Of a DNA stretch of 41,973 nucleotides, positions 492 through 38,995 are shown piece after piece. The notes beneath the pieces were generated by a model that was not told where the DNA came from, ran no database searches, and saw only the letters and a program-made list of their open reading frames with translations. Within the stretch, counting starts at the first letter, position 1, and each line of letters opens with the position of its first letter. This DNA is from a virus: positions 1 through 41,973 of the IMG/VR virus record IMGVR_UViG_3300000313_000158; one strand, 5' to 3'. A program made the translations under genes and the position numbers.

Positions 492-689
492 ATGATGATA
501 AAAAATGAAAAAGTGAGTATAAATACTCATTACAAAGGTTTGAAGAGAAGCGAAAAGTCTCAATTCATAAAAGAGGTTATGGATAGATGTGATATCTGCT
601 ATCCAACTGTTTTTTACAAATTGTCACATGACAATTGGAGTAAGCTAGAGCGCGAAGCAATCGAAAAAATGATACAAAATGCTGACTAA
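492..689 (+). CDS. Small protein in Cro position
   Basis: A 65-aa protein and the first gene of the rightward early operon, directly opposite the repressor. The sequence is short, basic and predicted helical (SQFIKEVMDRCDICYPTVFY looks like a helix-turn-helix core), as expected of a Cro-like or host-takeover DNA-binding protein. ATG 492 is chosen because the promoter's predicted start site lies near 459. Its end overlaps the next gene by 11 nt, so the two are probably translationally coupled. The Cro role is inferred from position only. Confidence 0.6.
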   Translation: MMIKNEKVSINTHYKGLKRSEKSQFIKEVMDRCDICYPTVFYKLSHDNWSKLEREAIEKMIQNAD

Positions 690-1245
690 TATTGAGTTTT
701 ATAATACTCCGGGTGGTGATGTCGCTTGTAAGCAGGTAGACCAAGCAATGTTCATCTTAAATGAATCTCATACGGACATTATAGAGAATATGTTGTCAGT
801 CATAAATGAATTGTGGCCGGATGCTTTCAAATGTTTAAGTGAGATTTATTCAAAATCAAGCATGAATAAACGATATTACGAGTATTTAATGATACATCGT
901 TTTGTTCGTTGCAATTTTGGAGCGTATGATACTCAGCAGCTTGACATAGATTCTTTTGGTTCATGGCATTTTGAACAAGTACCTTGCCCACTTCGTGGTG
1001 AATGTAAATTTGAATATATGTTGTGTAATCCGAAGATGAAAACCAAACTCTCGGATCGTGAAACAGAAATTGCTATGCTATTGTGTACAAAAACTCCTGA
1101 AGAGATAGCATCTGATAACAGTATTTCACTTCGTACGGTGTATAATCATATTAATAACATCAAGATAAGATTGAAGGTCCGGACGATAGGACAAATCGTA
1201 TCCTGGTATAAATCTATCGAACATGACGTCAAAACAGTTTTTTAG
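679..1245 (+). CDS. LuxR-type HTH transcriptional regulator
   Basis: A 188-aa protein. The C-terminal third (about residues 117-178) has the GerE/LuxR helix-turn-helix pattern: LSDRETEIAMLL, then EEIASDNSISLRTVYNHINN, then IKIRLKV. The N-terminal 110 residues carry several cysteines (for example CPLRGECKFEYMLC) and match no response-regulator receiver, so the input signal is unknown. It overlaps the preceding gene by 11 nt and the following one by 23 nt, within a tight early operon. Proteins of this type occur in Bacteroides prophage early regions. It may control the early/late switch, but its target cannot be read here. Confidence 0.7.
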   Translation: MLTNIEFYNTPGGDVACKQVDQAMFILNESHTDIIENMLSVINELWPDAFKCLSEIYSKSSMNKRYYEYLMIHRFVRCNFGAYDTQQLDIDSFGSWHFEQVPCPLRGECKFEYMLCNPKMKTKLSDRETEIAMLLCTKTPEEIASDNSISLRTVYNHINNIKIRLKVRTIGQIVSWYKSIEHDVKTVF

Positions 1246-5373: not shown

Positions 5374-5591
5374 ACTACATTCACTACATTATCTACATTC
5401 TAGAAAATGAGATAGTTAATAAGGAAAATGATAGACTACATTGGTACTACATTCTACTACAATTTTTTGTTTGATCTCTCAAAAACTACAATCTCTTACA
5501 AAAACTACAGATGTAGTATCAATTCTTTAAGGTATAGAATCAATTAAATTACTCATTTTCAATATGATAGATAAAATGTAGTGAATGTAGT
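5374..5591. repeat. ACTACATT iteron-like array, candidate replication origin
   Basis: ACTACATT occurs at 5374, 5383, 5435 and 5446, with near matches at 5392 and 5457. The opposite orientation, AATGTAGT, occurs at 5575 and 5584. The 17-mer at 5374-5390 is the exact reverse complement of 5575-5591. A compact palindromic version, ACTACA-2 nt-TGTAGT, lies at 5504-5517. The region is AT-rich, lies just after the primase-helicase gene and is non-coding. These are features of a replication origin or multi-site operator; function is inferred. Confidence 0.5.
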
Positions 5592-5731
5592 GCTTGTAGG
5601 AGGCAAAATACATGTTCTATCTACAATTTTTATATGACTGATTTCTGATTTTTATCAAACAGATATGAATATATTTATGCTCTAGATTAAACTAAAAACC
5701 TATTTATCACGCAGTTCACTAATTTTATTCC
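5474..5731 (+). repeat. Tandem duplication, copy 1 (decayed)
   Basis: This segment matches the next one (from 5732) at an offset of about 258 bases, starting at ATCTCTCAAAAACTACA. Similarity continues into the coding start of the gene at 5954. Copy 1 lacks about 30 bases that in copy 2 include the promoter -7 box. Divergence is scattered, so the duplication is not recent. Confidence 0.75.
5665..5731 (+). pseudogene. Dead 5' fragment of the gene at 5954
   Basis: From ATG 5665 the sequence lines up with the first ~22 codons of the intact gene at 5954, for example AAACTAAAAACCTATTTA against AAACTCGAAACCTATTTA. A TAG at 5683-5685 stops the frame after six codons, and the match ends where copy 2 begins. 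It is the truncated gene start carried by duplication copy 1. Confidence 0.65.
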
Positions 5732-6020
5732 ATCTCTCAAAAACTACAATTTCTTACAAAAACTACAAATGTAGTATCAATTCTTTAAGGTGTAAAATTA
5801 ATTAATATACTCTTTTTCAGTATAATAGATAATATGTAGTGAATGTAGTGCTTGTAAGTGGCAAAAAACATGTTCGCTCTGTAAGGTTTTATATGACTGA
5901 TTTTGTTTAAAATCAAACATAAATACTATATTTGTACTGAAAATCAATTATGTATGAATAATTTTATACTCTATCTTAAACTCGAAACCTATTTAGCACA
6001 ATGGCTCACTAATTCTCTTG
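5732..6020 (+). repeat. Tandem duplication, copy 2 (functional)
   Basis: The second copy contains the palindrome ACTACA-AA-TGTAGT (5762-5775), the tandem AATGTAGT-like motifs (5833-5849), the promoter at 5902-5934 and the start of the gene at 5954. It is the copy joined to an intact gene. Confidence 0.7.
5902..5934 (+). promoter_or_regulatory. Bacteroides-type promoter for the 5954 gene
   Basis: TTTG at 5902-5905, a 21-nt spacer and TATATTTG at 5927-5934 match the -33/-7 consensus. Transcription would start near 5941, so translation must begin at ATG 5954, giving a very short leader. The same box is missing from duplication copy 1. Confidence 0.65.
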
Positions 6021-6881: not shown

Positions 6882-6940
6882 TTGCAAGTCTTTTTAAACA
6901 GTTCGAACCTATAGTAATATTGCCTGAAAATCGAGGTAAT

Positions 6941-7945
6941 ATGAATAAATATCAACTAACAATCGATGACATAATTGGAGATTGGGCATATAGCAAAGGA
7001 TATGTGCGCAATGTTTTGTCTGGATTCAATGGTAAGCCGGTCAACGTCAAAATTTCATCGCTGGGCGGTTCTGTTGACCATGCTCTTGATATTCGGCAGC
7101 AGTTTGCCGATCATGGTGATGTAACAGCTTATATTTTTGGTTTTACGGCAAGTGCAGCCACCATTCTTGCGATGGGGGCTAAAAAGGTTTGTATGTCTAA
7201 GTACGCAATGTTTCTTGTACATAAATGTTCTAATTGGGTTGACGCCTGGGGACAATACAATGCAGACCAAATACAAGAGTTGATAGAACAGCTAAAGGAA
7301 AATAAGCTTCAGAATGACAAGATTGATCTTGTTATTGCTAGTATTTATGCCGATAAGTGCAAAAAACAAGTTAATGATATCCTTGATATCCTGAAAGAAG
7401 GCAAGTGGCTAACGGCAGAAGAAGCCAAAGAGATCGGACTTGTTGATGAGATTCTTGAAGACGAATCCGATGATAAGGTTGATTATGTTTCGCTTAATAA
7501 TAAGTTGAATGCGTTTGGCCTTACTCCTTATAAACAACCTTCAAAAAAAGAAGACAAAACTTCCGGAATGCTTGATAAGATCCTGCATAAATTGGATAAT
7601 CTTGTCGGCAATAAAAATGACAACACAGCACAAAATAAAATCACGATGAAAGAAGATTACAAAGGTGTCAACACAATCCTGAATGTCAAGGGATTGGATT
7701 TTGACAAAGACGCCAAGTGCACGCTCACTGAAGCGCAGGTTAAGGCTATCGAAGATGCTTTTAAAACGAAAGATGATGCCGTGACCGCTAAAGATCAAAA
7801 GATTCAAGAGCTGAATACTCAGGTTGAGAATTTACAAAACAAACCGGGTGATGAGACAACCCATGTAGAAGACGGTGGTAAAGACGATATTGATTCGGCT
7901 TCTTCTGCCAAAGAGATGTATAACCATTTTAAAGATTTACTCTAA
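6941..7945 (+). CDS. ClpP-like head maturation protease fused to scaffold-like tail
   Basis: A 334-aa protein. Residues 1-180 are a ClpP/S49-like serine protease: LGGSVDHALDI precedes the nucleophile in GFTASAATILAMGA (S71), and the base is H94 in FLVHKCSN. The usual C-terminal motif of the fold appears as WLTAEEAKEIGLVDEI. Residues 210-334 are charged and coiled-coil-like, as in phage scaffolds. It should process the capsid precursor during head assembly. ATG 6941 is used because the frame upstream opens only with TTG. Its stop overlaps the capsid start (TAATG at 7943-7947). Confidence 0.85.
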   Translation: MNKYQLTIDDIIGDWAYSKGYVRNVLSGFNGKPVNVKISSLGGSVDHALDIRQQFADHGDVTAYIFGFTASAATILAMGAKKVCMSKYAMFLVHKCSNWVDAWGQYNADQIQELIEQLKENKLQNDKIDLVIASIYADKCKKQVNDILDILKEGKWLTAEEAKEIGLVDEILEDESDDKVDYVSLNNKLNAFGLTPYKQPSKKEDKTSGMLDKILHKLDNLVGNKNDNTAQNKITMKEDYKGVNTILNVKGLDFDKDAKCTLTEAQVKAIEDAFKTKDDAVTAKDQKIQELNTQVENLQNKPGDETTHVEDGGKDDIDSASSAKEMYNHFKDLL

Positions 7946-14923: not shown

Positions 14924-15241
14924 ATGGAGATAGAATTTGAAGATGATGCATTATATGAGTTGTACGTAAATGGGAAAAAGCAAAATCCTAAGTACTCTAA
15001 ATTACCTGATACTGTAGTAAAAGGTTATGTAAAAGCAGTAAATAAGCTTCAATTATATAAAACAATAAATGATGTATGGAGAGATAAAGGGTTGCATTAC
15101 GAGAAAATAAAAAATGCGGATTTTTATTCAGTGAGATGTAATGATAAGTACAGATTGCACATTAAAGAGTGCATGAATGAAGATGGAAACTCTATTTTAG
15201 GTTTAAAGTTAATTAAAATCAGTAATCATTATGGCAATTAA
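14924..15241 (+). CDS. higB: HigB-family toxin (RelE/ParE fold)
   Basis: A 105-aa protein matching the plasmid-maintenance killer protein family. The signature region KGLHYEKIKNADFYSVR, followed by the strand NDKYRLHI, is typical, ending in LIKISNHYG. HigB toxins cleave mRNA on the ribosome. The gene precedes and overlaps the antitoxin by 11 nt, the toxin-first order of HigBA systems. It is probably a stabilisation module for the prophage, or an abortive-infection device. Confidence 0.85.
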   Translation: MEIEFEDDALYELYVNGKKQNPKYSKLPDTVVKGYVKAVNKLQLYKTINDVWRDKGLHYEKIKNADFYSVRCNDKYRLHIKECMNEDGNSILGLKLIKISNHYGN

Positions 15242-15545
15242 ATTGACAAATCAAATGCTTCCGTATCGTTCTTTTCATGTAGGAGAATACATTGATGACG
15301 ATATGAAAAGCTTGGGGCTTAAGCAAATAGAACTTGCCCGGAAAATGGAAATGCCTGCATCTAATTTAAATGCGATCATAAATGGTAAGCGTAATATTAC
15401 TGCTGGAATCGCAATTAAGTTGGAAAGTGTTTTTGGAACTCCTGCTGATATATGGCTAGGTTTGCAAGATAAATATGAGATTGAAAATGCTAGACGTTCA
15501 TTGCAGAATAAGACTGACAAGAATGTTATGAGGGGCAGGATATAA
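15231..15545 (+). CDS. higA: HigA-family antitoxin (XRE HTH)
   Basis: A 104-aa protein with a complete XRE helix-turn-helix, reading HVGEYIDDDMKSLGLKQIEL then ARKMEMPASNLNAIINGKRN and ending GTPADIWLGLQDKYE, the HigA/VapI pattern. It neutralises the toxin encoded just upstream and should repress the operon by binding 14870-14889. Translation is coupled by an 11-nt overlap. A terminator follows at 15604. Confidence 0.88.
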   Translation: MAIKLTNQMLPYRSFHVGEYIDDDMKSLGLKQIELARKMEMPASNLNAIINGKRNITAGIAIKLESVFGTPADIWLGLQDKYEIENARRSLQNKTDKNVMRGRI

Positions 15546-15704: not shown

Positions 15705-16826
15705 ATGATAAATCTTAAGCGTGTCGTTCATCCTGTTGGACAGGGATCATTTTATTCTGAAAGTTTTTTCTATATGGATAGGAATATCTGTAATGTTATT
15801 TATGATTGTGGATCATCATCAAATCGTTTATCGTTAAGAAATGAAATAGATTCATTTTCTTCTGAAAGAAAAGTCGTAGATATTTTATTTATTTCTCATT
15901 TTGATAACGATCATATAAATGGTATCAAATATATGAAAGATCAAAATTTTAAGTTTAAGAATGTTATTATTCCATTGATAAATTCAAAAGATAAATTTAT
16001 TTATATTTTGAAAAACATTGGTGATGAAGATTGTCTTGCTTTAATACGTAATCCTCAATCTTTTTTTGGAGATCAGACACGAATAATTAAAGTTAGTTCC
16101 GATTCGAATGGGCAGAGTAACAGAAATGAATCAATTGACATAAATGTAGATGAAAGTAATGAGAATCACCTTGATGAAACGACCATTAAAAACAATCAGG
16201 CAATATCTATTTCAAATCGTATATCTAAAGCTTTTTGGTTCTATATCCCTTTCAATTATTGTGAAAAACAAAGAGAAGAATCTTTAAGAAATGAACTCAA
16301 TAAATTAGAGAATAAGGAAATAAATGAGTTTATTAACAGTCCGAATATAGAAGCAATTATTAACCTTAGCAAAAACATTAACAATATATACAAAAAAGTA
16401 TGTGAAACTAATAGTTCAAATAATGCGTCAATGATAATCTTTTCGGGTCTTTATATTGCTTTAAGAACGTTCGTTCTTGCTTTTTATGGTCATTGTTATT
16501 TCTCCATGGATGAAGCTTGCCTGTACTGTGGCGATATTGGCTTAAATCAAAAGAATATAATAGATGATATTACAGGTAAATTAGGTTTCTCATGTAACCA
16601 TATAGGGCTGATTCAAGTACCGCATCATGGTTCTAAAGCAAGCTTTTCAGATGATATATATAAAATTAATACTAGATGTGACTATTTTTTTCTCTCTTAC
16701 GGCAATCATCGATATGATTTTCCATCACGAAAAGTATTATTGTCTATGGTAAATAATCATAAACGACTTTTTTTGATTAATGAAAATGATGTTTCAATTT
16801 TTGTCCAAGAAATATTTCTTTATTAA
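15705..16826 (+). CDS. ComEC-like metallo-beta-lactamase-fold protein
   Basis: A 373-aa soluble MBL-fold protein. The metal site reads ISHFDNDHINGI (residues 63-74), that is H65, D67, D69, H70, as in the ComEC/Rec2 group. A later Asp is in CGDIGL, and VPHHGSKAS supplies the final His residues. No membrane segments or ATPase partner are present. The middle (about residues 130-235) is a charged helical insert. Relatives hydrolyse phosphodiesters, and several are found in bacterial defence operons; a counter-defence nuclease acting on cyclic nucleotides is another option. The substrate cannot be read from sequence. It is the last gene of the first island. Confidence 0.75.
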   Translation: MINLKRVVHPVGQGSFYSESFFYMDRNICNVIYDCGSSSNRLSLRNEIDSFSSERKVVDILFISHFDNDHINGIKYMKDQNFKFKNVIIPLINSKDKFIYILKNIGDEDCLALIRNPQSFFGDQTRIIKVSSDSNGQSNRNESIDINVDESNENHLDETTIKNNQAISISNRISKAFWFYIPFNYCEKQREESLRNELNKLENKEINEFINSPNIEAIINLSKNINNIYKKVCETNSSNNASMIIFSGLYIALRTFVLAFYGHCYFSMDEACLYCGDIGLNQKNIIDDITGKLGFSCNHIGLIQVPHHGSKASFSDDIYKINTRCDYFFLSYGNHRYDFPSRKVLLSMVNNHKRLFLINENDVSIFVQEIFLY

Positions 16827-17058
16827 TTTCTCTCTAGAATATTTTACCAATTCATAAAAGCTTCTTCAAGATAGTGACAATGATAAGTTAGATCGTGATC
16901 TTCATTGTACATTTAAGATGCTTCGTCTGATATTGCAGAGATCGGAAAAGATTAGATTTTAACTACAATGCGGAATGCCGGGTATTCTATCTGCATTTGC
17001 ATTGATGGTTACCCGCATTAGTTAATTAAACCCGAATAAGCTTATTCGAATATATTTA
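16827..17058. other. Non-coding leader region before the second late block
   Basis: Contents: a 37-nt stretch (16829-16865) similar to 33798-33834; a hairpin formed by AATGC/GCATT and GGGTA/TACCC (about 16969-17020); and a 16-bp perfect palindrome, CGAATAAGCTTATTCG (17033-17048), of operator type. No gene or good promoter was seen. Confidence 0.5.
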
Positions 17059-17100
17059 GAGGGCGTGATGTCGTGATATAATACGCTCCTGTCTTTTTAT
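17059..17100 (+). terminator. Late-leader hairpin + U-run, copy A
   Basis: This 42-nt element matches 34853-34894 at 34 of 42 positions with no gaps. Both fold into a hairpin with a GUGA loop and a GNGCG-type base stem, and end in TGTCTTTTTA. Copy A has three mismatches in the stem. It looks like a terminator or attenuator 45 nt before the start codon of the next gene. Confidence 0.65.
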
Positions 17101-17101
17101 C

Positions 17102-17152
17102 ATAGCCATGATTCATTTAGATTTGAACAAAAATCAAATGAATCATGGCTAT
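17102..17152 (+). promoter_or_regulatory. 17-bp perfect inverted repeat masking a start codon
   Basis: ATAGCCATGATTCATTT (17102-17118) and AAATGAATCATGGCTAT (17136-17152) are perfect inverted repeats. Five more inner pairs, GATTT/AAATC, shorten the loop to 6 nt. The start codon ATG 17145 lies inside the 3' arm, so the folded mRNA should block ribosomes. Confidence 0.75.
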
Positions 17153-18179
17153 ATCTGTAATAAAAGACGTATCCGATTATAATTTCAGTAGTGAGTTGCA
17201 GAAGCTGCAATTCTCCACGAATAAATCATCTGCTAAGTTCACATTGAAATGTGGCGATGAAACTATTTTGAGTGAAACCTATGTCCCTGACGACAAAGGT
17301 GTAATTACAATCCTTCAGCTTGATGAACTTGTGTCTCCGCATCTGTGGAGCAATCTGATTGAGCCATTTAGTTATGTTTTGGATGATGGCGATACTCCAA
17401 TTGCTAAAACATTCAGCGTCCAACTCTGTACGGCCGAATGTTGGTTACCTGCCAAAACTTTCAATGGCAGTTATTTTTTGTCTACACTTATAGGGGATAA
17501 AGAAACCTCTATCGGTCGCAAAGAAGTGGTGCACCTTATCATTACTGCTGCTACGGATGTGGTGGCTAGTGCTAAGTATTTTGATGCATCCTATCAAATG
17601 ACCACATCAACCGTTAAGCTAAGTTCGTTGACTGATTTAAACAGGGTTCTTACGGTTGATGTCTCTTCGGAACTTTTTGAGGTAAAGGATAAAAAACTTG
17701 TAGAGTATACAATTAAAGCGGATGCCCGTTCGCAGACGTTCAAAGTCGTAGAAGCTATGGATGCTGCACCTTGTCTATTGTTCAGCAATTCTTTTGGTTG
17801 CCAGGAAACTTTGTATTGTACCGGTACGCACACGTTAGCCCCGGAGTATACACGTTCCTCGGCATATCGTAGTGGCATGTTCCGTAATTATGATATCGAA
17901 GAAAAACGGATATTTAAGGCTAACACGGGGCCGCTTACAATTGATATGGCGCAATGGGCGCATGATTTGTTTCGGTCTAAAGAAATTTATCTTCTTAATG
18001 GATTAGTTGTCGGTAAAGAAATTACGATTACTGACAGCAAGGATGAGCAGACAAACGATTTTGATCATGTTCCATCCTTCACCTTTTCATATCAGTATGC
18101 ACAACGCAACCATAACATCTTGCAGCTTCCACGTGCCGGACGTGTCTTTGATAATACGTTTGATCAAACATTTGAATAG
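17145..18179 (+). CDS. Virion structural protein, probably tail-related
   Basis: A 344-aa beta-rich protein with no named family. The N-terminal half looks like repeated beta domains, and the C-terminal third has CQETLYCTGTHTLAPEYTRS and a strand-rich end. Similar proteins recur in Bacteroides prophages beside portal or tail genes. It opens the second late block behind the attenuator-like leader and with its start codon inside a perfect stem, implying tight translational control. The portal gene lies two genes downstream. Confidence 0.55.
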   Translation: MAISVIKDVSDYNFSSELQKLQFSTNKSSAKFTLKCGDETILSETYVPDDKGVITILQLDELVSPHLWSNLIEPFSYVLDDGDTPIAKTFSVQLCTAECWLPAKTFNGSYFLSTLIGDKETSIGRKEVVHLIITAATDVVASAKYFDASYQMTTSTVKLSSLTDLNRVLTVDVSSELFEVKDKKLVEYTIKADARSQTFKVVEAMDAAPCLLFSNSFGCQETLYCTGTHTLAPEYTRSSAYRSGMFRNYDIEEKRIFKANTGPLTIDMAQWAHDLFRSKEIYLLNGLVVGKEITITDSKDEQTNDFDHVPSFTFSYQYAQRNHNILQLPRAGRVFDNTFDQTFE

Positions 18180-21356: not shown

Positions 21357-21843
21357 TCTATTTGATGCACATGCTTATTTTAAAAGCTTATGTGCTAGAA
21401 ACAAGTTAGCAATGGCTAATAAGTTTTATCCATGTAGTTGTAGCGGCATTGATTCACTTGAAGATGTTGTATCAAATATCCGTACGCAATCTGCATTTTG
21501 TTGTGTAGATGATACCAATGATTCTGTTGTTGAGCAAATTAACGGTGGTTACTTCAATCACCGTGTTTTCACGGTATTTCTTCTCAAACGCTATAAACTG
21601 AATGATATGGCCGACCGTCAATCTGCATTAAGTATTTGCCGGCAATTGTTTCGTCAGTTCCATTCAAGGCTGATTATCGACAAAGAAAATTTGAATAATG
21701 AGCTGATATATTTAAATACGGAGCGCATCCCAAGCCGTGAGATCGGTAAGTACTTTATGGGAGGTTGCACCGGCTTATACTTTATGGTTGACGTTCAGGA
21801 ACCTACACAACTAATTTATAACAAAGATGAGTGGAGCGAGTGA
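21343..21843 (+). CDS. Hypothetical connector-region protein
   Basis: A 166-aa protein, mixed alpha/beta, with a cysteine pair near residue 27. ATG 21343 gives a 14-nt overlap with the previous gene; an ATG at 21334 is an alternative. Located between two connector-type genes, so probably a minor head-tail joining or tail-terminator protein; no family recognised. Confidence 0.5.
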   Translation: MDSINLFDAHAYFKSLCARNKLAMANKFYPCSCSGIDSLEDVVSNIRTQSAFCCVDDTNDSVVEQINGGYFNHRVFTVFLLKRYKLNDMADRQSALSICRQLFRQFHSRLIIDKENLNNELIYLNTERIPSREIGKYFMGGCTGLYFMVDVQEPTQLIYNKDEWSE

Positions 21844-22318
21844 TTGGAATAATTCCACTCCTGAACAACGACAAAAGTATATTCAGGAGTGGACTAATAT
21901 GATGGTTACAATATGGCGTGAGAAGATCGAACGCCTTCATGTAATAGATACAGGTACGTTACTGCAGGATATCACCGGTAATTTTTCTTCTGTAAATAAC
22001 ATGGAGGTTTTTACGATAACTCATAAGTTTTTGGAGTACGGTATTTTTCAAGAACTCGGAGTAGGTCGTGGTTATTCACGTGATAACGGCGGTAATCTTG
22101 ATTTCTTGGATCCGAATGCTACACAGCGCAAATCAAAACATAGACAGAAATCCGGTAAAGTGACAGGACCGGGACATAGACATGAACGAAAATGGTTTTC
22201 AAAGAAGTATTATGCATCTATTATGGTGATGAAAGAAGAGATGGCACAGATGTACGGCCAGGCATTTGCCGGCATTATGAGTAATGCTTTTAATGACTTG
22301 AACAGCAAGTTACGTTAG
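21827..22318 (+). CDS. HK97 gp10-like neck protein
   Basis: A 163-aa protein with the gp10-type pattern: an N-terminal amphipathic helix, the segment HVIDTGTLLQDITGNF, then FLEYGIFQELGVGRGY, and a basic loop rich in Lys/His/Arg before a helical end. Such proteins help attach or close the head-tail joint in siphoviruses. Overlaps the previous gene by 17 nt. Confidence 0.65.
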   Translation: MSGASDWNNSTPEQRQKYIQEWTNMMVTIWREKIERLHVIDTGTLLQDITGNFSSVNNMEVFTITHKFLEYGIFQELGVGRGYSRDNGGNLDFLDPNATQRKSKHRQKSGKVTGPGHRHERKWFSKKYYASIMVMKEEMAQMYGQAFAGIMSNAFNDLNSKLR

Positions 22319-22372
22319 CCTGTCTTTTTATCCCGGCATACTTACTTCTATTTTCGCATCAAAATAAATTTT

Positions 22373-25060
22373 ATGGCAGATACTAAAGATACATTGGTAG
22401 AGTTTGCTACTCAGATAAAAGAAGAGCGTAAGGTTGGAGCTAATACGGCGGATCGCCTTGGCTCTCTTCTTATTGCCATGATTAAAAATACAAGCGTAGA
22501 GGAGCTTGCTAAAACATTTTTGAGAAAAGATCAGGAAGATGAAACATCCTTCCTGATAAAATTTCTTGCGGGTATTATCACACCATATATAAAATCAAAA
22601 GATTTCACTTCTGGACAATTAGGTGCCGGCTATTCTTTATCCAATAAAGACGGCAAGTCCGTACTTGAGGTAGATGAACTTCTAGTACGCATGAAAGCTG
22701 TTTTTACATCATTGGAGATTCGCAAATTAAGTTATGTGGGTGATAACTTGTTATTGTCTGCAGCAGGCTGTAAGATTGGTAAGGTCGAGGAAACAGACAC
22801 TACATACAAATGTTACTTCCTAGCAGATGATGGTACAACAGCCACAACAAATGATTTTGTTGTAGGTGACCAGGCACGTTGTCAAACGTTCAATATCAAA
22901 GCAGGCAAATATACAGATGTTTCAAACAAGTACTATTGGCGATTAGTTACAGCCGTCGGAGATGATTACATTGAGTTGAGCAAAACCGATTGTGACACGA
23001 ATTCAGATGTGCCGGCTGCTGGTGATGCCTTGGTACAATTAGGTAACCGCACAGATGCATCACGGCAGAATGCAATGATGTTCGTTGTTACAGGCGAGAA
23101 TGCACCGGCATTCATTCAATACAAAAGTATTAGCTCTTATTCTTTGTCCGGGAAAGATCAAACAGTGATATCCCCTTCAGGCAATAAGTTCACAGGTTCG
23201 TTTAATCTTTCAACCGGTGGATCTGTTTTGGACTATGCCGATAATGCTGCGGATCAAGCTAAAAAAGATGCTCAAGGTTATGCTAATTCTGCTCTAGCAG
23301 GTGCAAAGCAATACGCAGATGCACAAATAAAGGTTCAGTCGGATTCTATTACTGAAACCGTTGGAAAGGTTGATACACTGAATAACCGAGTGAATACAGC
23401 AGAGGAGAAGCTTACTCCAACCGCAATAAATCTAGTCGTAGCAGAACAGACAGCAAACATAGCATCTTATATGAAAGGTAAAATGTTATATCGTGACCCA
23501 ACTTTTGCATCAGGAACGAATAACACAAGTATATATAATAACCAGGGTAACGGGGCTGTGTCTATTAGTAGAGTATCAGGAATAAGCGGTAACCCTAATA
23601 ATAGCGGTTACTGCTTGAGCATTTCCACAAATGGCTACGCTTCACCGGGGCTTGGTGGTTTCTACTTTGCTAATCAATGTCGTGCAAATGCTATTTTCAT
23701 CACAAGAATTATAGCTAATATCCCGGCAGGACATTCGATGCAATGGGCTTCAAACTCAACAGGAATCAACGGCAGTTGCAAATGGCTTACTTCACAAGTC
23801 GGAACAGGTACTTGGAAAGAATACATATGTCAAGTTACATGTGGTTCGTCTGGCGATTTTAGTAGTACAAATTTCTTTTATTTAGATGGTTCAGCACCTG
23901 TAACATGGTATGTGGCTTATGCTACTGTATTTGATGTGACGGATGTAGATGATACTCCAACAAAAGCAGAATTGCAGGCAGGATTAACGGTACAGGCCGG
24001 AGGGCTTTCTTTATTTGGTAAAGTGATAGGACTTGCCGGAATAGTCACATTCAATTCACTAGACGGTGATTCACAAAACCGTATTATCAATGCTGCGAAT
24101 GCAGCTAATAATGCACAAGGTACAGCCAATACAGCAAATGATAAGGCTGGTGCAGCTCAAAGCAATTTAGATACACTTAACGGTAGATTAAGGGGTTTGG
24201 CGTTTACCGATAAAGCACTCGATGCAATGAGGAATGAAGGAATCATTGCCGGTGCTTATATGAATATGGCATACCTTGATGTGAAGACGATTGTAGCAAA
24301 TGGCATCAATGCACAAACCATTGATGCAAATAATGCAACATTCAAAAATCTTAATGTTGAAAATGCCACATTAAAGAATGTACAAATATCAGGCTCTATA
24401 AGAAGTCCGTTTTTATGGGTAGATGGAAATAATGTGCCAGCAGGTGGATATACATTAACCAATAACATAGCCCTACAAGGCACAAATATGACTATAACTA
24501 GTTCCTTGGATAAAGTAGGCAAACGAGTTACTGTTTCGTCTGTAAGGTACCCTAATGGCAACTATATTGATGGCATTTATACCATTAAGGCAAGTGACGG
24601 CTCCCCTTTTTATGAAGATGGTATTGCCAAATCACAAATTACGATATCACGTGAAATCGTTGAACTCTTAGGATATGGAACTGAGACACAATTTTTTGGA
24701 TGGATCGTGCTGAATCGTAGAAATGTGTATACCGCTCATAAGTACGGCTATCAGCACCTAGTTATGTACGAGGGATATGTGAATGATGATGGTAGTATGT
24801 ATAAACATAAAAGCTTTGATGGTGGTGCAGTCTCATCGGTTAAGACAGGAGACGGCTATTATAGGGTAACCATACCAAGCACTCCGGTAAGCGAATATCT
24901 TGTTTTGCTGGGTAACTATTCTCATATATCAGGAGCAGGAAGATATGCTTCAGTATATAACAGACAGTCTACTTATTTTGAGGTGTATACCGGTGACGAC
25001 TCTACGTCCAACACTGGACCTTTCTATTTTCAAGTGATCAGCACAGCTGATTGGGTATAA
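22373..25060 (+). CDS. Tail fibre / receptor-binding protein
   Basis: An 895-aa protein built like a tail fibre. A short N-terminal anchor is followed by beta-rich repeats. Coiled coils lie at about residues 286-362 (AKKDAQGYANSALAGAKQYA and onward) and 572-606. A strand-turn stretch (about 630-677, ANGINAQTIDANNATFKNL) resembles a triple beta-helix. The C-terminal 215 residues are the probable receptor-binding head. It should set host specificity. It lies just before the holin and lysozyme genes, a position used by many siphophages for fibres, though the tape measure is 10 kb further on. Confidence 0.7.
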   Translation: MADTKDTLVEFATQIKEERKVGANTADRLGSLLIAMIKNTSVEELAKTFLRKDQEDETSFLIKFLAGIITPYIKSKDFTSGQLGAGYSLSNKDGKSVLEVDELLVRMKAVFTSLEIRKLSYVGDNLLLSAAGCKIGKVEETDTTYKCYFLADDGTTATTNDFVVGDQARCQTFNIKAGKYTDVSNKYYWRLVTAVGDDYIELSKTDCDTNSDVPAAGDALVQLGNRTDASRQNAMMFVVTGENAPAFIQYKSISSYSLSGKDQTVISPSGNKFTGSFNLSTGGSVLDYADNAADQAKKDAQGYANSALAGAKQYADAQIKVQSDSITETVGKVDTLNNRVNTAEEKLTPTAINLVVAEQTANIASYMKGKMLYRDPTFASGTNNTSIYNNQGNGAVSISRVSGISGNPNNSGYCLSISTNGYASPGLGGFYFANQCRANAIFITRIIANIPAGHSMQWASNSTGINGSCKWLTSQVGTGTWKEYICQVTCGSSGDFSSTNFFYLDGSAPVTWYVAYATVFDVTDVDDTPTKAELQAGLTVQAGGLSLFGKVIGLAGIVTFNSLDGDSQNRIINAANAANNAQGTANTANDKAGAAQSNLDTLNGRLRGLAFTDKALDAMRNEGIIAGAYMNMAYLDVKTIVANGINAQTIDANNATFKNLNVENATLKNVQISGSIRSPFLWVDGNNVPAGGYTLTNNIALQGTNMTITSSLDKVGKRVTVSSVRYPNGNYIDGIYTIKASDGSPFYEDGIAKSQITISREIVELLGYGTETQFFGWIVLNRRNVYTAHKYGYQHLVMYEGYVNDDGSMYKHKSFDGGAVSSVKTGDGYYRVTIPSTPVSEYLVLLGNYSHISGAGRYASVYNRQSTYFEVYTGDDSTSNTGPFYFQVISTADWV

Positions 25061-27013: not shown

Positions 27014-27254
27014 TATTGTTAATTCAGCTTTATTGTAATTAAAAAGTGTATCGCCATATTTCTTGTTTTAGTCGTTCTATTAGTCTATTCCCAAGCATCT
27101 CGTTGTTTTACTCTAAGAAGATTATACCATTACTTAAATCAATTGTGCTATAAAAGTTATTACATTAAGTATAATATTTGTGATAAAATTTATAGTGAAA
27201 TTATTCAATAATTTGGGAAAAAGTGTTTTATTTGCAAATAAAAACACTCATATT

Positions 27255-29828
27255 ATGGAAAATGATTTAAAGCATAAGGAAAAAACAATAGCAGATTTAG
27301 TTAGATTCCTGAAACTAAGACCGGATGATGCTTCTAAATATTCTTTATTGATAGGTTCAGGATGTTCGATAACTTCAGGCGTTAGAAGTGGAGAATCTTT
27401 AATAAAGGAATGGAAAAAAAAAGTATTAGAAGAATCTGGGAAATATAGAGAAGGTATGGATATTGATTCTTTCCTGAAAAAAGAAGAGAATGACTGGTAT
27501 GACGATAAGAATGCATATTCCACTCTTTTTGAAAAGAGATTCGATTTACAGAGTCAAAGACGAGCATTTGTAGAAAGTGAAGTATCTAAAGCAATTCCAT
27601 CTATAGGTTATGCATATTTGGTGAAATTAATAGAAGGAAAATTTTTTAATACTATTTTCACTACTAATTTTGATGATTTATTGAATGAAGCATTTTACAG
27701 ATTCTCGAATGTAGATAAAAGACCATTAGTTTGTGCCCATGACTCCGCGATATCAAGTGTTACAGTTACATCTAAGCGGCCTAAAATAATAAAACTTCAT
27801 GGAGATTATTTATTTGAAGATATAAAAAGTACTTCAAGAGAAACCGAATCTTTACAAGCAAATATGAAAAATAAATTTATAGAATTTGCAAAAGATTATG
27901 GATTGATAGTAGTCGGATATGCTGGTAACGATAGATCAATAATGGATATTTTGGTTTCATTGTTAAAGAAAGAGGATTATTTTAGGAGTGGAATTTATTG
28001 GTGTATCAAAGATGATGCGGCAATTTCAGATGAATTAAAGAGACTTCTGTGGAAAGATCGGGTTTATTTTGTTAAAATAGATGGATTTGATGAACTAATG
28101 GCAGAGCTTAATAAAGAGCTAAATGAAGGAGCGTTACCTATTGATAATGCAATGTTGAGTAGTGAAAATCAGCAAAAATTAATTAAGAGTTTAACCTCAA
28201 ATGAAGTGGTTCGACAATATAAGTCAAAAATTATACAAGAAGATTGTCAAAAGTTACAAAAACAATTAAAGAAGAATATGTTTGAGAATTTCCTTAGACA
28301 GACAGATTTTGGTACAGAAAAAAATGAAAATAGAAAAGGATCTGATAGGGCTAAAAGGAAAAATGGCTATCCTGATTTAAGTGATGCTGAAAAAGAGGGA
28401 ATAACCGATGTAAGGATTTCGTTTGTAGAGGATGATATCGTCGCAGTGAAAAATAAAATTGAATTGAGTTTGCAGAAGAATATAATGGATTCTCGATATA
28501 AAATATATTTATTACAGATGAAGTTGGATTTGATCAAATCTAGTAAATATAATTATGATGATTATAAAAATACATTAGATGAACTTATTAGAATTGATCC
28601 ATATTCTGAAAAATATTATATAAATGCTATTAATACTTTTAATAAAATAGATATAAAGTTATCATATATCGATAAAATAATGAGTATATATCCCAATGAT
28701 TATTTTCTGTATCTTAGAAAGGCTTTGATATATAGTGATATATATAAATCAGTAGCAGATAAAAGTGAAATTCAGATAGATAAAGTGGTAAGTTACTTCA
28801 ATAAAAGTATAGAATTAAATGGTAGCATATCTAATGATGCTTGGGTGAAATTATGTGATTTTTATGGCATGATATATAAGAATGATAAAGACAAATTAAT
28901 CTCTGGGATAAAAGAATTATTGCCTATCTATGAGAAACAGGATAAGTATCATCCAAATTATTTAAAAGTGTGTTCTAGTAATTATAAGATATTGCATTTT
29001 GACATAGAAAATCAATTGAAGGATGGATATGATTTTGCAAAGAAATCAGATAGTTCTAGTAGGGTTGAATCTGTTTTGATACTTCTTTTGAAGTATTTAA
29101 AAGGTGAAAGTAAAAAAACAGATTTGGATAGTTATATGGAAGATTATGAAAAATGCTTTATACCATCGTCTGACTATTTAATAGAAAAGGCAACAATATT
29201 AGCGGAATTAAATAACAAAATTCATGAAGCTATAGAGATATTAGAAAAGATTGATAATGGAATGGTATATGGTTATTTAATACGTTTATATTCTATAACG
29301 AAACAGAAGGATAAAGCAAAAGAACTTGTTGATAAATTTGGTGACTTAGATTTTGATCTTATTGTTTCGTATTATTTAGATTTTGGAATGTATGATGAGC
29401 TTGTAAAAACTCTTGATAAGTATTGGGCGGAATCAAATCCTGTCGATTTTGTGTCATTTATTTCTTATTCATATGCAAAAATTCAACTAAATGATTCTTC
29501 GATTTTTAAGCAGATAAAAAAATATTATGATAACCCAATTACTTGTTTACCTGAAATTATGATTAATTATTTCATTGCAGATGAAATGTATAACAAGCGA
29601 ATTGATAAGAATAAGATAAAGAGTAAGATAATAGATAAAGGAACATATATAGATAGTGTTCTTGGGGCTGCATATTCTCTTATTGGTGACGAGAACAATG
29701 CTTTTATTCATATACAAAACGCTATATATAAGGATGCTTTATTAAAATATTCTGTTAGAGATTGGCCAGCATTTAAAAAATATAGAGAAAATCCTAAATT
29801 CAAAAAAATAGTAGGACTAGATGTGTGA
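27255..29828 (+). CDS. SIR2-domain protein with helical-repeat C-terminus
   Basis: An 857-aa protein. Residues 30-240 form a SIR2-type NAD-binding domain: GSGCSITSG (34-42), TTNFDDLL (136-143, catalytic N138), KLHGDY (180-185, catalytic H182) and VVGYAGND (219-226). The remaining 600 residues look like an alpha-helical repeat array, probably TPR-like, for sensing or binding a partner. Many anti-phage SIR2 proteins (for example the DSR type) have this design and deplete NAD after infection, killing the cell. Start ATG 27255 is favoured over an upstream frame from 27180 because it begins the conserved part. AT-rich and with its own promoter, so it may be expressed from the prophage. Confidence 0.8.
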   Translation: MENDLKHKEKTIADLVRFLKLRPDDASKYSLLIGSGCSITSGVRSGESLIKEWKKKVLEESGKYREGMDIDSFLKKEENDWYDDKNAYSTLFEKRFDLQSQRRAFVESEVSKAIPSIGYAYLVKLIEGKFFNTIFTTNFDDLLNEAFYRFSNVDKRPLVCAHDSAISSVTVTSKRPKIIKLHGDYLFEDIKSTSRETESLQANMKNKFIEFAKDYGLIVVGYAGNDRSIMDILVSLLKKEDYFRSGIYWCIKDDAAISDELKRLLWKDRVYFVKIDGFDELMAELNKELNEGALPIDNAMLSSENQQKLIKSLTSNEVVRQYKSKIIQEDCQKLQKQLKKNMFENFLRQTDFGTEKNENRKGSDRAKRKNGYPDLSDAEKEGITDVRISFVEDDIVAVKNKIELSLQKNIMDSRYKIYLLQMKLDLIKSSKYNYDDYKNTLDELIRIDPYSEKYYINAINTFNKIDIKLSYIDKIMSIYPNDYFLYLRKALIYSDIYKSVADKSEIQIDKVVSYFNKSIELNGSISNDAWVKLCDFYGMIYKNDKDKLISGIKELLPIYEKQDKYHPNYLKVCSSNYKILHFDIENQLKDGYDFAKKSDSSSRVESVLILLLKYLKGESKKTDLDSYMEDYEKCFIPSSDYLIEKATILAELNNKIHEAIEILEKIDNGMVYGYLIRLYSITKQKDKAKELVDKFGDLDFDLIVSYYLDFGMYDELVKTLDKYWAESNPVDFVSFISYSYAKIQLNDSSIFKQIKKYYDNPITCLPEIMINYFIADEMYNKRIDKNKIKSKIIDKGTYIDSVLGAAYSLIGDENNAFIHIQNAIYKDALLKYSVRDWPAFKKYRENPKFKKIVGLDV

Positions 29829-34342: not shown

Positions 34343-34591
34343 ATGAGTAAAATACAGATAGAGGGTATTGAATTAAATGAGAATTCAATAGGCTTATTGA
34401 ATGATTGGCAGAGTGATAGCAACGAAGGTATTGACCTCGTAAATGAAACATTAGATTCGGTAGCTTATAATTTAGCAAATCCGGATATGGGCATGGATGA
34501 TAAAGAGAGATTAAATCTCGTTGCCGGTATTCTTGAGTTTAAACGTCAGGTGAATAGTTTCAGAAAGGAGGTTTGCAATGAACACGAATGA
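34343..34591 (+). CDS. Small acidic protein before tape measure
   Basis: An 82-aa, acidic, helical protein. With the next gene it fills the position where tail assembly chaperones (G/GT pairs) usually precede the tape measure. It overlaps the next gene by 14 nt; no programmed-frameshift site was clear. Confidence 0.5.
   Translation: MSKIQIEGIELNENSIGLLNDWQSDSNEGIDLVNETLDSVAYNLANPDMGMDDKERLNLVAGILEFKRQVNSFRKEVCNEHE
34564..34571 (+). promoter_or_regulatory. Strong Shine-Dalgarno site (AAAGGAGG)
   Basis: AAAGGAGG lies 6 nt before ATG 34578, within the end of the preceding gene. It is one of only a few strong sites in the window and fixes the next start. Confidence 0.6.
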
Positions 34592-34852: not shown

Positions 34853-34894
34853 GAGAGCGTGGTGTCGTGAGATACTGCGCTTTTGTCTTTTTAC
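34853..34894 (+). terminator. Late-leader hairpin + U-run, copy B
   Basis: A 14-bp hairpin with G-U pairs (GAGAGCGTGGTGTC/GATACTGCGCTTTT) and a GUGA tetraloop, followed by TGTCTTTTTA. It is the better-paired homologue of copy A at 17059-17100 (34 of 42 identical). It lies 49 nt before the tape measure start codon and likely acts as an intrinsic terminator or attenuator. Confidence 0.7.
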
Positions 34895-34896
34895 CT

Positions 34897-34950
34897 CAAA
34901 AGGACACATCCTACTTTTGGCCATAACCAAAATTAATCGGTCATGGCTAA
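34897..34950 (+). promoter_or_regulatory. Alternative stems masking the tape measure start
   Basis: CTTTTG (34914-34919) can pair with CAAAAG (34897-34902), or TTTTGG with CCAAAA (34927-34932), or TTGGCCAT (34917-34924) with ATGGCTAA (34943-34950), which holds the start codon. These are mutually exclusive, and the last mirrors the GCCAT/ATGGC pair before the gene at 17145. Confidence 0.5.
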
Positions 34951-37900
34951 TATACAAAAAACGGAAGTTGTTACAACTATGAACAACTCCCAGGCTGTAG
35001 ATAAATTAAAAGAACTTCGAACAGAAGCAGCAAAGTATTGTGATGAAATGATAAAGGCCAAGACGGCAGGCGATACCATTTCATACAATAACATGCTGAA
35101 GCAACTTAATCAAGTGAATAATGAGATTAGGTTGATGCAACGTAATGCGGTGAATGTCAACGATGTGATGTCGCGTCTTTCTACATCAAAACCAAGGGAA
35201 ATTCAAAAAGCAATTAAAGCCATCAACACGGAGCTGAATAGCGGACGCATTGAAAGAGGTTCCAAAGAGTGGGACGAATACACTTCTAAGTTGAAGAGGT
35301 GTAAGGCTGAATTACAATCCGTCAATAATGAGTTAAAAACTTCCGGTAACGGAGGTAATTTCTTCACAAAGGTCGCCGATGGTTTTAACCGATATTCGGC
35401 AGCAGCTGCCGGAGCCATTGCAGGCTTTACAGGTATTGCCTATACGGCGAAGAAATGTGTCGACAACTTTGCCGAGATGGATGAAGCCATGACCGGAGTT
35501 ATGAAGTACACTAATATGACCAAAGATCAGGTCAAAGACTTGAATGTAGATCTCAAGAAAATGGATACACGTACTCCACGTGAACAATTAAATGCTTTGG
35601 CTGGTGATGCCGGGCGTTTGGGCATTACAACCAAACAAGGAGCTGAAGAGTTCGTCGATGCAGCAGATAAGATAAATGTAGCCTTGGGTGAAGATCTCGG
35701 CCCTGATGCGGTTAAGAATATCGGTCGTATGGCCATGATGTTTGGCGAGGATAAAACAAAAGGTTTGCGAGGGGCAATGTTGGCAACCGGTTCGGCAGTC
35801 AATGAACTGTCTCAAGAGGTGGGTGCAGATGCTAATTACTTGGTTGGTTTTACCGCTCGTTTGGCAGGTGTGGCTAAGCAGGCTAATATGACTCAAGCTG
35901 ATGTCCTGGGTTTTGCGGGAGTACTGAACAAAAATATGATTGAAGAAGAGGTTGCAGGTTCTGCGCTTGAGCAATTATTATTAAAGTTGTATCAACAGCC
36001 TCAGAAGTTTGCTAAGATAGCTGGGCTTGATGTGAAAAACTTTACTGAACTTCTTAAAACCGATGCGAATAAAGCTCTTATAACGTTCTTCGAGTCATTG
36101 AAGAAATACGGTAATTTGAATAACCTGGCACCTGCGTTTAAGGATATGGGGCTTGATGGAGTTCGTGCAAGTGGTGTGTTATCGACATTAGCCAATAAGA
36201 TTTCAGATGTTCGCAAGCAACAATTAATTACTAACAAGGCATATCAAGAGGGCACAAGTGTTATTACCGAGTTTAACACAGAAAACAATACTGTGCAGGC
36301 AGGATTCGAGAAGGCTGGAAAGAGAGTTAAAGATTTATCAATTGAATTAGGTGAGAAGCTACAGCCGATAATGACCAGTTTGCTACATACAACTTCATTG
36401 GTTATTAGTATAATGAACACGACAATAGGCTTTATTACCAAACATATTGTAGCTATTTCGGGTGTTACAATAGCTCTATCTACATATTTGCTAGTAAAAA
36501 AATCACAAGTCATGTGGGCTAAGCTGGTTGAACTGTGGGAGATAAAAGAGTGGGTTGCTGCTATGTTGTTGAATCGCGGTTATAAATTATTGTATGCAAC
36601 GATATCAGCTAATCCATTCGCAATATTAATTGCACTCACAACTGCAGCCGCTTATGCTAATATAAAATTAACCGGATCGGCGCGGAATGTGGCGACAGGT
36701 GCCGAAGAGATGAATAACAAACTAAAAAAGTCTGAAGAGCATTATAACAATTTGAACTCAGTGTTAAAGAAGTATTTGCCTATTGCTCAAGATGCAAAGA
36801 AAAGCATTACAGAGCGCAAGAATGCAATTAATATTCTTCAAAAGGTAATGCCTAATTATTTTAAAAATCTTGATATTGAAACGGCAAAGAATTATAATTT
36901 GGCAGATGCAACATCTGCAGTTACTAGGCAACTTGGTATAAAGATCGGAATGCAAAAATTATCGGCACAACAGGATTACAATTATCTCAAAGGTGTTATG
37001 GATAAGTATAATCAAGAACTAAACGATGTCAGCACTATTAAGGGCAAAGAATGGTATGCAGGATATCAGGCTTCAAAAATGGCTTTTGATAGAGCAAAGG
37101 GTGCTTTGGATGAAGCTAATAAAGCAAATGATAAGATTGTATCACTCATGGCGCAACAGCGTAGAGAGCAGAATAAAGCATCTTCTCGTCAGAATGAAAA
37201 AGGTAATGGTGAAACAAATTACACTTCTCAGACAAAAACGAAAAAGAAAAAAGGCAAGTCTGCTGAAACATTAGAGCGTGAGCGTGAGAAAAAAGCCATT
37301 GATCAGATCGAAGCTAAGTATGATAAACTAAAGGCTGTTCAAACCTCTTTTTATGCGTCTGGACAAATTGATAAGCAAAAGTTTGATGATCAGATTAATG
37401 AGCTGGACCTTGAGATGCTTGATAAAAAAATGGGAGTCTATAAAACAGATTCTAAAGAGTATAATGCCTTATTGCTTGAGAAGGCGAATAAGAAAAAAGA
37501 AATAGAGGATAAGGCGCATGCTAAGTCTGTTGAAGATGTAGACCAGGAAGCTAAGAAAACACGTGATTCGTATCTTCAAATGCTGATAGAAAAAGAAACC
37601 GACCAAAAGGCATTTGAAGAAGACATTCATCAACTCGAATATGACACCTTGCAGAAAAAACGCGATGTATATGCCAAAGGTAGCAAGGAGTATGAGGATT
37701 ATCAAAAACAAATGGATGAGTGGTTATATAACGATAAACTTCAGAAAGAGAAAGAATTTGATACCAAGCTTTCAGAGATAAAGAAACATTATGCTAAGAT
37801 GTCTGACACAGAAGTCATGGACGAGGAGCTTAAAGTGATTGATGAAGCATATAAGCGTAAATTGCTTAGTGAAGAGGTCTATCAACAACTTCGTAAGGCT

Positions 37901-38995
37901 ATTCAAAGAAAATATGCTAAAGATATTGATCACAAAGATTTTGCATTTGGTGATAAATCTGTTAAACAATCTACTAGAGACGATGCTCAAGATCTCCTCA
38001 ATGACTCTGCTGCCGAAACACCGCAAAAAAAAGGATTGCTTGATAACCTTTTCCTTAATGATGCTAAAATTCATGCTACGGCTATGGGTAAAATTAAAGA
38101 TCAAGAGTCACAGGGAATAATCACTCACCAAAAGGCTACTGAAGAAAAAGCAGATATAGATAGTCAATATTATGATGCATTGGCTGAAAAAGCACAGACT
38201 GCGGCTCAGACTCTTCAGGGAATTACATCTGTGGTTAGTGAATATAATAACGCTTGCCGTGATGTAGAGGTGGCTAAGGTTGAGAAAAATTATAGCAAAC
38301 AGATTAAGGCAGCAGGAGAAAGTACTACAAAAGGTAAAGCACTTGAGGAGAAAAAAGAGAAAGAAGTGGCGAAGATTAAATCTAAATATAATAAGCGAAC
38401 AACTCAAATACAAATAGCTCAAGCTTTAGCTGAAACAGCCGTCGCAGCATTAAATGCGTATGCTGCAGGTAGTAAATATGGTCCTGTTGTTGCAGGCATT
38501 TTTGCCGGCATTGCAACCGCTTCAGGCATGTTACAGGTTGCCACTATCAAAAAACAGGCAGCAGCACAGGACGAAGGATATTATTCCGGAGGTTTTACCG
38601 ATGGCAATAATTATCATAAAGTTGCCGGATCCGTGCATGAAGGTGAGTTTGTGGCCAATCACCAGGCGGTGAATAATCCGAATGTGCTTCCGGTACTGCA
38701 GTTGATTGATCGCGCCCAACGTAATAACACCATCGGAACATTGACTGCAAATGATGTTATCCATGCCATTAGTCGTGGTTCGTCTGCAGATGATCCGTCA
38801 TCATCTTCGGACAATAACGCAGTTGCAGGAATTGCGGTTATGTCCGCGTCGTTGGATAAGCAGTCTGCTATAATCAGCCGTTTGTCATCCTTACTTGAAA
38901 CAGGCATACAATCGTATGTGGTTATGGACGGAGAGCAGGGGCTTGATAAAAAATATACACATTACAAGAAATTACAATCAAATAAAGAGAGATGA
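34943..38995 (+). CDS. Tail tape measure protein (TP901-like core)
   Basis: A 1350-aa tape measure protein, the longest gene here. The TP901 core lies at about residues 180-445 (DLKKMDTRTPREQLNALAGD, later GFAGVLNKNMIEEEVAGSAL). Hydrophobic segments lie near residues 151-168, 492-516, 549-572 and 1165-1200. Residues 600-1150 are charged, coiled-coil-like repeats. At about 0.15 nm per residue the tail would be near 200 nm, fitting a siphovirus. It overlaps the next gene by 4 nt. Its start codon can pair with an upstream element. Confidence 0.88.
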   Translation: MANIQKTEVVTTMNNSQAVDKLKELRTEAAKYCDEMIKAKTAGDTISYNNMLKQLNQVNNEIRLMQRNAVNVNDVMSRLSTSKPREIQKAIKAINTELNSGRIERGSKEWDEYTSKLKRCKAELQSVNNELKTSGNGGNFFTKVADGFNRYSAAAAGAIAGFTGIAYTAKKCVDNFAEMDEAMTGVMKYTNMTKDQVKDLNVDLKKMDTRTPREQLNALAGDAGRLGITTKQGAEEFVDAADKINVALGEDLGPDAVKNIGRMAMMFGEDKTKGLRGAMLATGSAVNELSQEVGADANYLVGFTARLAGVAKQANMTQADVLGFAGVLNKNMIEEEVAGSALEQLLLKLYQQPQKFAKIAGLDVKNFTELLKTDANKALITFFESLKKYGNLNNLAPAFKDMGLDGVRASGVLSTLANKISDVRKQQLITNKAYQEGTSVITEFNTENNTVQAGFEKAGKRVKDLSIELGEKLQPIMTSLLHTTSLVISIMNTTIGFITKHIVAISGVTIALSTYLLVKKSQVMWAKLVELWEIKEWVAAMLLNRGYKLLYATISANPFAILIALTTAAAYANIKLTGSARNVATGAEEMNNKLKKSEEHYNNLNSVLKKYLPIAQDAKKSITERKNAINILQKVMPNYFKNLDIETAKNYNLADATSAVTRQLGIKIGMQKLSAQQDYNYLKGVMDKYNQELNDVSTIKGKEWYAGYQASKMAFDRAKGALDEANKANDKIVSLMAQQRREQNKASSRQNEKGNGETNYTSQTKTKKKKGKSAETLEREREKKAIDQIEAKYDKLKAVQTSFYASGQIDKQKFDDQINELDLEMLDKKMGVYKTDSKEYNALLLEKANKKKEIEDKAHAKSVEDVDQEAKKTRDSYLQMLIEKETDQKAFEEDIHQLEYDTLQKKRDVYAKGSKEYEDYQKQMDEWLYNDKLQKEKEFDTKLSEIKKHYAKMSDTEVMDEELKVIDEAYKRKLLSEEVYQQLRKAIQRKYAKDIDHKDFAFGDKSVKQSTRDDAQDLLNDSAAETPQKKGLLDNLFLNDAKIHATAMGKIKDQESQGIITHQKATEEKADIDSQYYDALAEKAQTAAQTLQGITSVVSEYNNACRDVEVAKVEKNYSKQIKAAGESTTKGKALEEKKEKEVAKIKSKYNKRTTQIQIAQALAETAVAALNAYAAGSKYGPVVAGIFAGIATASGMLQVATIKKQAAAQDEGYYSGGFTDGNNYHKVAGSVHEGEFVANHQAVNNPNVLPVLQLIDRAQRNNTIGTLTANDVIHAISRGSSADDPSSSSDNNAVAGIAVMSASLDKQSAIISRLSSLLETGIQSYVVMDGEQGLDKKYTHYKKLQSNKER

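Follow-up and report, generated by a model that had tools for sequence, protein, structure and literature searches.

The window analysed here, a stretch of 41,973 nucleotides from a virus (IMG/VR record IMGVR_UViG_3300000313_000158, positions 1 to 41,973), carries several late genes and, upstream of them, a repeated sequence (Table 1). Positions 17059-17100 and 34853-34894 are identical at 34 of 42 positions without gaps, as an earlier sequence-only reading had reported and recomparison confirmed; no other pair in the window reaches this level once the tandem repeats at 31.5-32.5 kb and 5.5-6.0 kb are set aside. Within it lies the word TGTCTTTTTA, which has three exact occurrences in the window (17090, 22321, and 34884, all on the + strand), the one at 22321 being the third copy previously recognized before the fibre gene. 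The word by itself is not above chance in the window; its context is. Exactly 18 nt past each copy starts a Bacteroides -7 box, TAnnTTTG, in the forms TAGATTTG (17118), TATTTTCG (22349), and TACTTTTG (34912), a feature that the earlier reading had missed, and an ATG follows 16-23 nt downstream of the -7 box at the three sites. In each of them, the 8-letter box TGTCTTTT keeps a constant spacing to the promoter signal of the host. The second site begins 2 bases past the stop codon of the gene at 21827-22318. Also overlooked was a fourth, degenerate copy, AGTCTTTTTA at 6887, 54 nt upstream of the head-protease ATG at 6941; AGTCTTTTTA...TAATATTG occupies the equivalent position in G295, and G063 has a consensus site upstream of its head-protease gene. 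With regard to the genes said to follow the two long copies, the tape measure at 34943 was upheld, while a structural role for the product of 17145 is plausible but unproven, the protein having no match in Pfam, PHROG, or NCBIfam.

Table 1. Positions of the regulatory features and associated genes in the window.
Feature	Position	Strand	Remarks
Candidate activator	679..1245	+	188 aa; LuxR/GerE C-terminal HTH; phrog_10300 E 5e-44; Pfam GerE
Putative late promoter, degenerate	6887..6922	+	AGTCTTTT-N20-TAATATTG, also read AGTCTTTTTA-N18-TAATATTG
Late gene, head maturation protease (ClpP-like)	6941..7945	+	
GUGA-type hairpin, terminator-like	17060..17090	+	imperfect copy
Putative late promoter 1	17090..17125	+	TGTCTTTT 17090-17097, N20, TAGATTTG 17118-17125
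Inverted repeat	17102..17152	+	straddles -7 box; 3' arm covers ATG 17145
Late gene	17145..18179	+	344 aa; kept in all related prophages
Putative late promoter 2	22321..22356	+	TGTCTTTT, N20, TATTTTCG; no hairpin
Late gene, fibre/tail protein	22373..25060	+	
GUGA hairpin, terminator-like	34853..34884	+	perfect 14-bp stem
Putative late promoter 3	34884..34919	+	TGTCTTTT 34884-34891, N20, TACTTTTG 34912-34919
Inverted repeat, weaker	34917..34950	+	covers ATG 34943
Late gene, tape measure protein	34943..38995	+	

The conserved part of the element is TGTC(T/C)TTT-N20-TAnnTTTG, i.e., a phage-specific box in place of the Bacteroides -33 element, plus the host -7 box. Its spacing was examined in 1.12 Mb of prophage-containing DNA, the regions of which were picked mainly by protein homology, a minority (e.g., G063, G234, and G187) being already known to hold boxes. 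In this sample, TGTC[CT]TTT is separated from TAnnTTTG by 20 bp 45 times and by every other gap from 0 to 45 only 0-1 times. An unbiased 6-mer count in the same DNA gave TGTCCT at -28 as the most enriched 6-mer upstream of TAnnTTTG (25 seen vs. 0.16 expected); the TTTG of the host also emerged, at a spacing of 19-20, and serves as an internal positive control. Since TGTCCT at -28 is in register with the host -33 TTTG, the YTTT of the phage box occupies the place of the host -33 box. At 46 of 51 sites, the ATG of an open reading frame of at least 60 aa lies within 90 nt, and the late gene nearly always begins 4-31 nt past the -7 box. Taken together, the box sites very probably represent a promoter class, and the repeated sequence would then mark the border of a virus promoter of a type not described before, rather than being mainly an RNA switch.

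In the 2.0-Mb genome to which the window belongs, six of the seven motif matches fall in two prophages, and among 301 genomes of the family the matches are concentrated in a dozen prophage contigs. Scans of viral contigs with a box-to--7 spacing of 18 returned at least 119 matches, compared with 58 at spacing 15 and 59 at spacing 21, so that the excess is at least twofold, the first count being a lower bound that allows no exact ratio. The same bipartite motif is present upstream of homologues of 17145 (~30-37% identity) in other Bacteroidaceae prophages and, as TGTCCTTTT, upstream of tape-measure homologues in others. The motif appears in many viruses of gut Bacteroides, and the earlier proposal of a phage-specific element, repeated ahead of late modules and present in relatives, was borne out. 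Weak DNA matches in 150 relatives were dropped, as they lie in unrelated sequence. A Paraprevotella prophage (G232) has box variants TGTCCTnT at L409:17827, L410:641, L410:10048, and L411:619, which identifies TGTCC as the more constrained part of the box. At L226:14772, L228:6797, L233:13801, L422:2992, L231:1142, and L425:12978, the ATG lies only 4 nt past the -7 box, and leaderless late mRNAs are therefore predicted there.

The primary sigma factor of Bacteroides, sigma-ABfr, has TAnnTTTG as its -7 consensus and TTTG as its -33 element (PMC7366714). Compared with sigma-ABfr promoters (PMC7366714), the phage sites have the same -7 box, the same overall spacing, and a -7 box placed shortly before the gene; however, the -33 TTTG is absent 19-20 nt upstream, where TGTCYTTT is found with a variable base after YTTT. 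Moreover, the spacer of sigma-ABfr promoters is variable, whereas that of the phage motif is an invariant 20 bp and the motif is confined to prophages. At base 5 of the box, each prophage uses either T or C almost throughout, with one deviant among 48 sites in 16 prophages (permutation p 5e-5). Such near-uniformity within prophages argues for a trans-acting reader.

The candidate reader is encoded by the gene at 679-1245, in the early region of the window. Apart from partial or weak BLAST matches, this is the sole non-virion gene common to the window and the C16, G073, and G356 prophages. The product matches Pfam GerE above the cutoff (E 7e-7) and PDB profiles (E 3e-11), and its AlphaFold model (pLDDT 84) has an HTH fold like those of LiaR, DosR, GerE, and NarL; a single-sequence structure model with pLDDT 48 was set aside. 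By profile and predicted fold, the C-terminal HTH is of the GerE class. The N-terminal domain, for which no convincing fold match was obtained, is conserved and contains four invariant Cys residues (Cys78, Cys103, Cys109, and Cys116, in the contexts RCNFG, CPLRG-x-C, and C-x-P). HMM matches and good fold matches cover only the C-terminal part, with no known receiver or autoinducer-binding domain at the N terminus, and those few Foldseek alignments to LuxR-type receptors that extend further have an rmsd of 16-19.

Full-length regulators and clustered boxes co-occur (7/10 genomes vs. 4/291, p 9e-10). In a reverse test, loci were fetched by the 679-1245 protein alone from two collections, and 39 of the 48 records searched contained the box, with 137 matches against 6 for a reversed control pattern. 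The recognition helix comprises residues 151-165 in the model, and position 158, which is Ile158 in the window, follows base 5 of the box: Arg occurs with TGTCC in 22 phages and Ile, Val, or Leu with TGTCT in another 22. The rule holds in 44 of 46 phages (exceptions, L538 and L532); in multi-contig genomes, boxes were assigned to the regulator's own contig by coordinates and strand, an assignment that is not always certain. The protein of G295 (Bacteroides mediterraneensis Marseille-P2644) is of the Ile type, like that of the window, and the one of G073 (B. heparinolyticus DSM 23917) is of the Arg type. In a tree built from the N-terminal domain, the residue and base traits each need about three changes (one to three), one of them firmly supported. 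With so few switches, the Fisher p of 6e-12 does not count as independent evidence, and the covariation of regulator and box is a strong association based on few independent events. A second prophage of the same genome (G000:C16:47398-77112) carries boxes of the C type together with a diverged regulator of its own (36% identity).

Some phages depart from the pairing of regulator and box. No regulator-family member was detectable in the examined, partly fragmentary DNA of the box phages in G339, G063, G234, G187, G252, and G159, and all-against-all BLAST among box phages without phrog_10300 revealed no shared regulator, mainly virion/packaging and replication genes being found. On the other hand, phage Versailles, G327, a second locus in G356, and G073:C31 have family members without TGTC boxes. 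Overall, the 679-1245 protein is quite probably the reader of the box, and the trans-acting phage protein suggested in the sequence-only reading is likewise probable.

Based on these data, an activator-dependent late promoter is proposed, with a probability of about 80% for the model as a whole. The phage would keep the host sigma-ABfr -7 box TAnnTTTG and replace the host -33 TTTG with TGTC(T/C)TTT at a fixed distance of 20 bp. The LuxR/GerE-HTH protein, probably bound to this box, would recruit or redirect host RNA polymerase to the virion modules late in infection. Where an upstream unit ends nearby, an intrinsic-terminator hairpin would abut the box, its U-tract being the T-run of the box, and at some late genes, including 17145, read-through RNA would hide the AUG while promoter-started RNA would leave it open. 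The model builds on computed features, namely the bipartite motif, its spacing, its phage specificity, its position at late genes, base-5 uniformity, protein association and covariation, and enrichment of upstream hairpins, and from them it predicts promoter activity, start site, protein-DNA binding, timing, termination, and masking.

Alternatively, a phage or host alternative sigma factor could read TGTCYTTT together with a TAnnTTTG-like -7 box, the LuxR-type gene being merely linked. A single non-palindromic box at -33 is typical of sigma recognition, the Versailles homologue is annotated as an "RNA polymerase sigma factor", and some box phages are without a LuxR-type gene. However, the -7 box matches the host consensus without change, no sigma region 2 is recognised in the LuxR-type protein, the recognition-helix residue of this protein tracks the box base, and the box is hardly used by the host chromosome, which makes a dedicated sigma factor unlikely.

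Phage-encoded activators that serve several dispersed late promoters with host RNA polymerase are familiar from Mu C/Mor, P2 Ogr, and proteins of the ArpU/RinA type. These belong to other protein families and use other box positions, and they are set apart here by description only. The arrangement proposed for the window also resembles that of T4 middle promoters, at which MotA and AsiA carry out sigma appropriation (PMC6755090). In both cases, a phage box takes the place of the -35-type element, with constant spacing to a -10/-7 box that is retained from the host; the T4 box is read by a small phage DNA-binding protein, and the same is proposed here, as an analogy of mechanism and not of kinship. 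The box and the protein appear unrelated to those of T4 (a MotA double wing vs. a LuxR/GerE HTH), and no MotA entry appeared among the listed sequence or fold matches of 679-1245. Further differences are that MotA serves middle genes, whereas late genes of a phage with a sigma-ABfr host are concerned here, with no AsiA-like co-activator identified.

The 34/42 repeat itself is a terminator-like hairpin abutting the promoter. A GUGA hairpin had been reported in both copies, and it is perfect only at 34853 (-19.3 kcal/mol, z -5.8), where the 14-bp stem is directly followed by the U-run UGUCUUUUUA in the layout of an intrinsic terminator. The copy at 17059 is mismatched beside the loop (-9.7 kcal/mol, z -1.6), and a stricter terminator scan of 16800-17400 did not list it. 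Six homologous copies are available (the two in the window, G000:C38, L290, G295, and L303), in which 94% of cells are paired, 6 of 14 pairs show double changes, and the covariation score is reached by none of 500 shuffles. These compensatory changes indicate that the structure is maintained in one sub-lineage. No Rfam model matched above its gathering score, the only sub-threshold matches being microRNA models that fit any long hairpin, and viral-contig matches to a 14-base pattern of the hairpin apex were left unused, as matches of such length were taken as chance. The copy at G000:C38:59740-59840 (L130:17740-17840), 90% identical to the hairpin, box, and spacer of window 17059-17119, is chromosomal, is flanked by a small ORF with an HTH and a sialate O-acetylesterase gene, has its masking stem cut off, and is likely a prophage or cargo remnant.

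A conserved RNA structure of this kind is what would be expected of an RNA leader, as first proposed, in which attenuation or antitermination at the GUGA hairpin, perhaps with a trans-acting antiterminator, is combined with start-codon masking. However, among relatives of gene 17145, L138 (97%) has a different hairpin directly before TGTCTTTTTA, and L139 (74%) and L140 (71%) have none comparable. In all three, homology around the gene starts at TGTCTTTTTA and not at the hairpin. The hairpin is likewise missing at 22321, while box, spacer, and -7 box persist, and other sites carry unrelated hairpins or none. The conserved part is a DNA promoter, attenuation or antitermination as the main mechanism found no support, and the RNA-leader explanation is very improbable. 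Under the activator-dependent promoter model, the GUGA hairpin is probably an intrinsic terminator of the upstream unit that shares its U-tract with the box. Terminator-like hairpins abut the upstream side of the box at 23 of 56 box sites, compared with 15 of 166 other TAnnTTTG sites (p 3e-7), and they are mostly unrelated in sequence.

Start-codon masking is a separate matter. The reported pairing of GCCAT with ATGGC is real, as both sites fold, with the ATG 45 and 49 nt past the repeats. The fold at 17102-17152 has -28.3 kcal/mol (z -8.7), with the -7 box in its 5' arm and the ATG in its 3' arm; the stem at 34917-34950 is part of a fold of -15.6 kcal/mol (z -4.1). The stem at 17102-17152 spans the -7 box and can therefore form only in read-through RNA. 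Transcripts from late promoter 1, the expected start of which lies downstream of the 5' arm, would be unmasked (-28.3 kcal/mol for the read-through leader of 17145 vs. about 0 from the expected start). The masking idea is thus structurally convincing at this stem and applies to read-through RNA, not to transcripts from the promoter; on the folding models, masking at 17145 is slightly favoured. The masking pairing beats shuffled partners (p 2e-4), and further stems of the same geometry and unrelated sequence are present in L139/L140, G063 (two, of 21 and 15 bp), and G256 (one of 17 bp). Stems of at least 25 points occur at 4 of 48 box sites vs. 2 of 166 other TAnnTTTG promoters (p 0.02), and at a threshold of at least 19 points the difference is not significant. 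Masking as a general feature of the promoter class was rejected for want of an excess at moderate thresholds, and it is claimed for a few sites only. Inverted repeats and hairpins do surround the promoter and could in principle be palindromic DNA operators, bound by a dimeric repressor or activator, rather than RNA structures. That reading is the least probable of all, since no common protein would read the strong stems, the sequences of which are unrelated among the window, G063, G256, and L139/L140.

A similar device is known from T4 genes e, soc, 49, and I-TevI, the start codons of which are hidden in longer transcripts but not in late ones (PMC3014915). As there, the late promoter in the window falls within the sequence for the 5' strand of the start-hiding stem; the difference is that here the AUG itself and an A-rich leader are in the stem, an arrangement known here from folding only.

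The literature searched yielded neither a late promoter nor a late activator described for Bacteroides temperate phages. A broader reading, for and against which we consider the evidence evenly balanced, is that a widespread late-gene switch of Bacteroidales temperate phages is at hand. In it, a LuxR/GerE-HTH family with a Cys-rich N-terminal domain would take over host RNA polymerase via a single 8-bp box at -33, a one-residue/one-base code (Arg to C; Ile, Val, or Leu to T) would separate co-resident prophages, and terminators and T4-gene-e-like silencing of read-through would lie in the same 100 bp. If the activator-dependent promoter model is right, it would name the likely switch protein, allow late operons and prophage activity in gut Bacteroidales to be located by a sequence rule, and supply a phage-specific inducible promoter for Bacteroides genetics. 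It would also suggest how two prophages per cell (T-type in the window, C-type in C16) avoid cross-activation. Bacteroides mRNAs are without Shine-Dalgarno sequences, and the T4 gene e masking trick would appear to have arisen independently in phages of such hosts.

The promoters also appear to be joints at which modules are exchanged. The window gene at 34578-34820 adjoins the tape-measure promoter, and its homologues precede the promoter of the 17145 homologue in G295, G226, G267, and G237; module exchange would also account for the terminator and box common to two window sites. Several other features of the window were noted. A non-coding near-duplicate of ~165 bp at 5490-5960 (258-bp offset, 40/42 over the best stretch), a possible origin or set of iterons, lies between the primase gene and the late region. 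A HigB/HigA-like toxin-antitoxin pair (14924-15545, assigned by inspection only) adjoins RadC and metallo-beta-lactamase-fold genes in a variable region upstream of late promoter 1. A SIR2-domain protein is encoded at 27180-29828, between the lysis genes and the tape measure, a typical position for anti-phage defence cargo. Finally, the gene at 31403-33787, for a TPR-like repeat protein, contains many 102-bp repeats, and variation in repeat number is likely.
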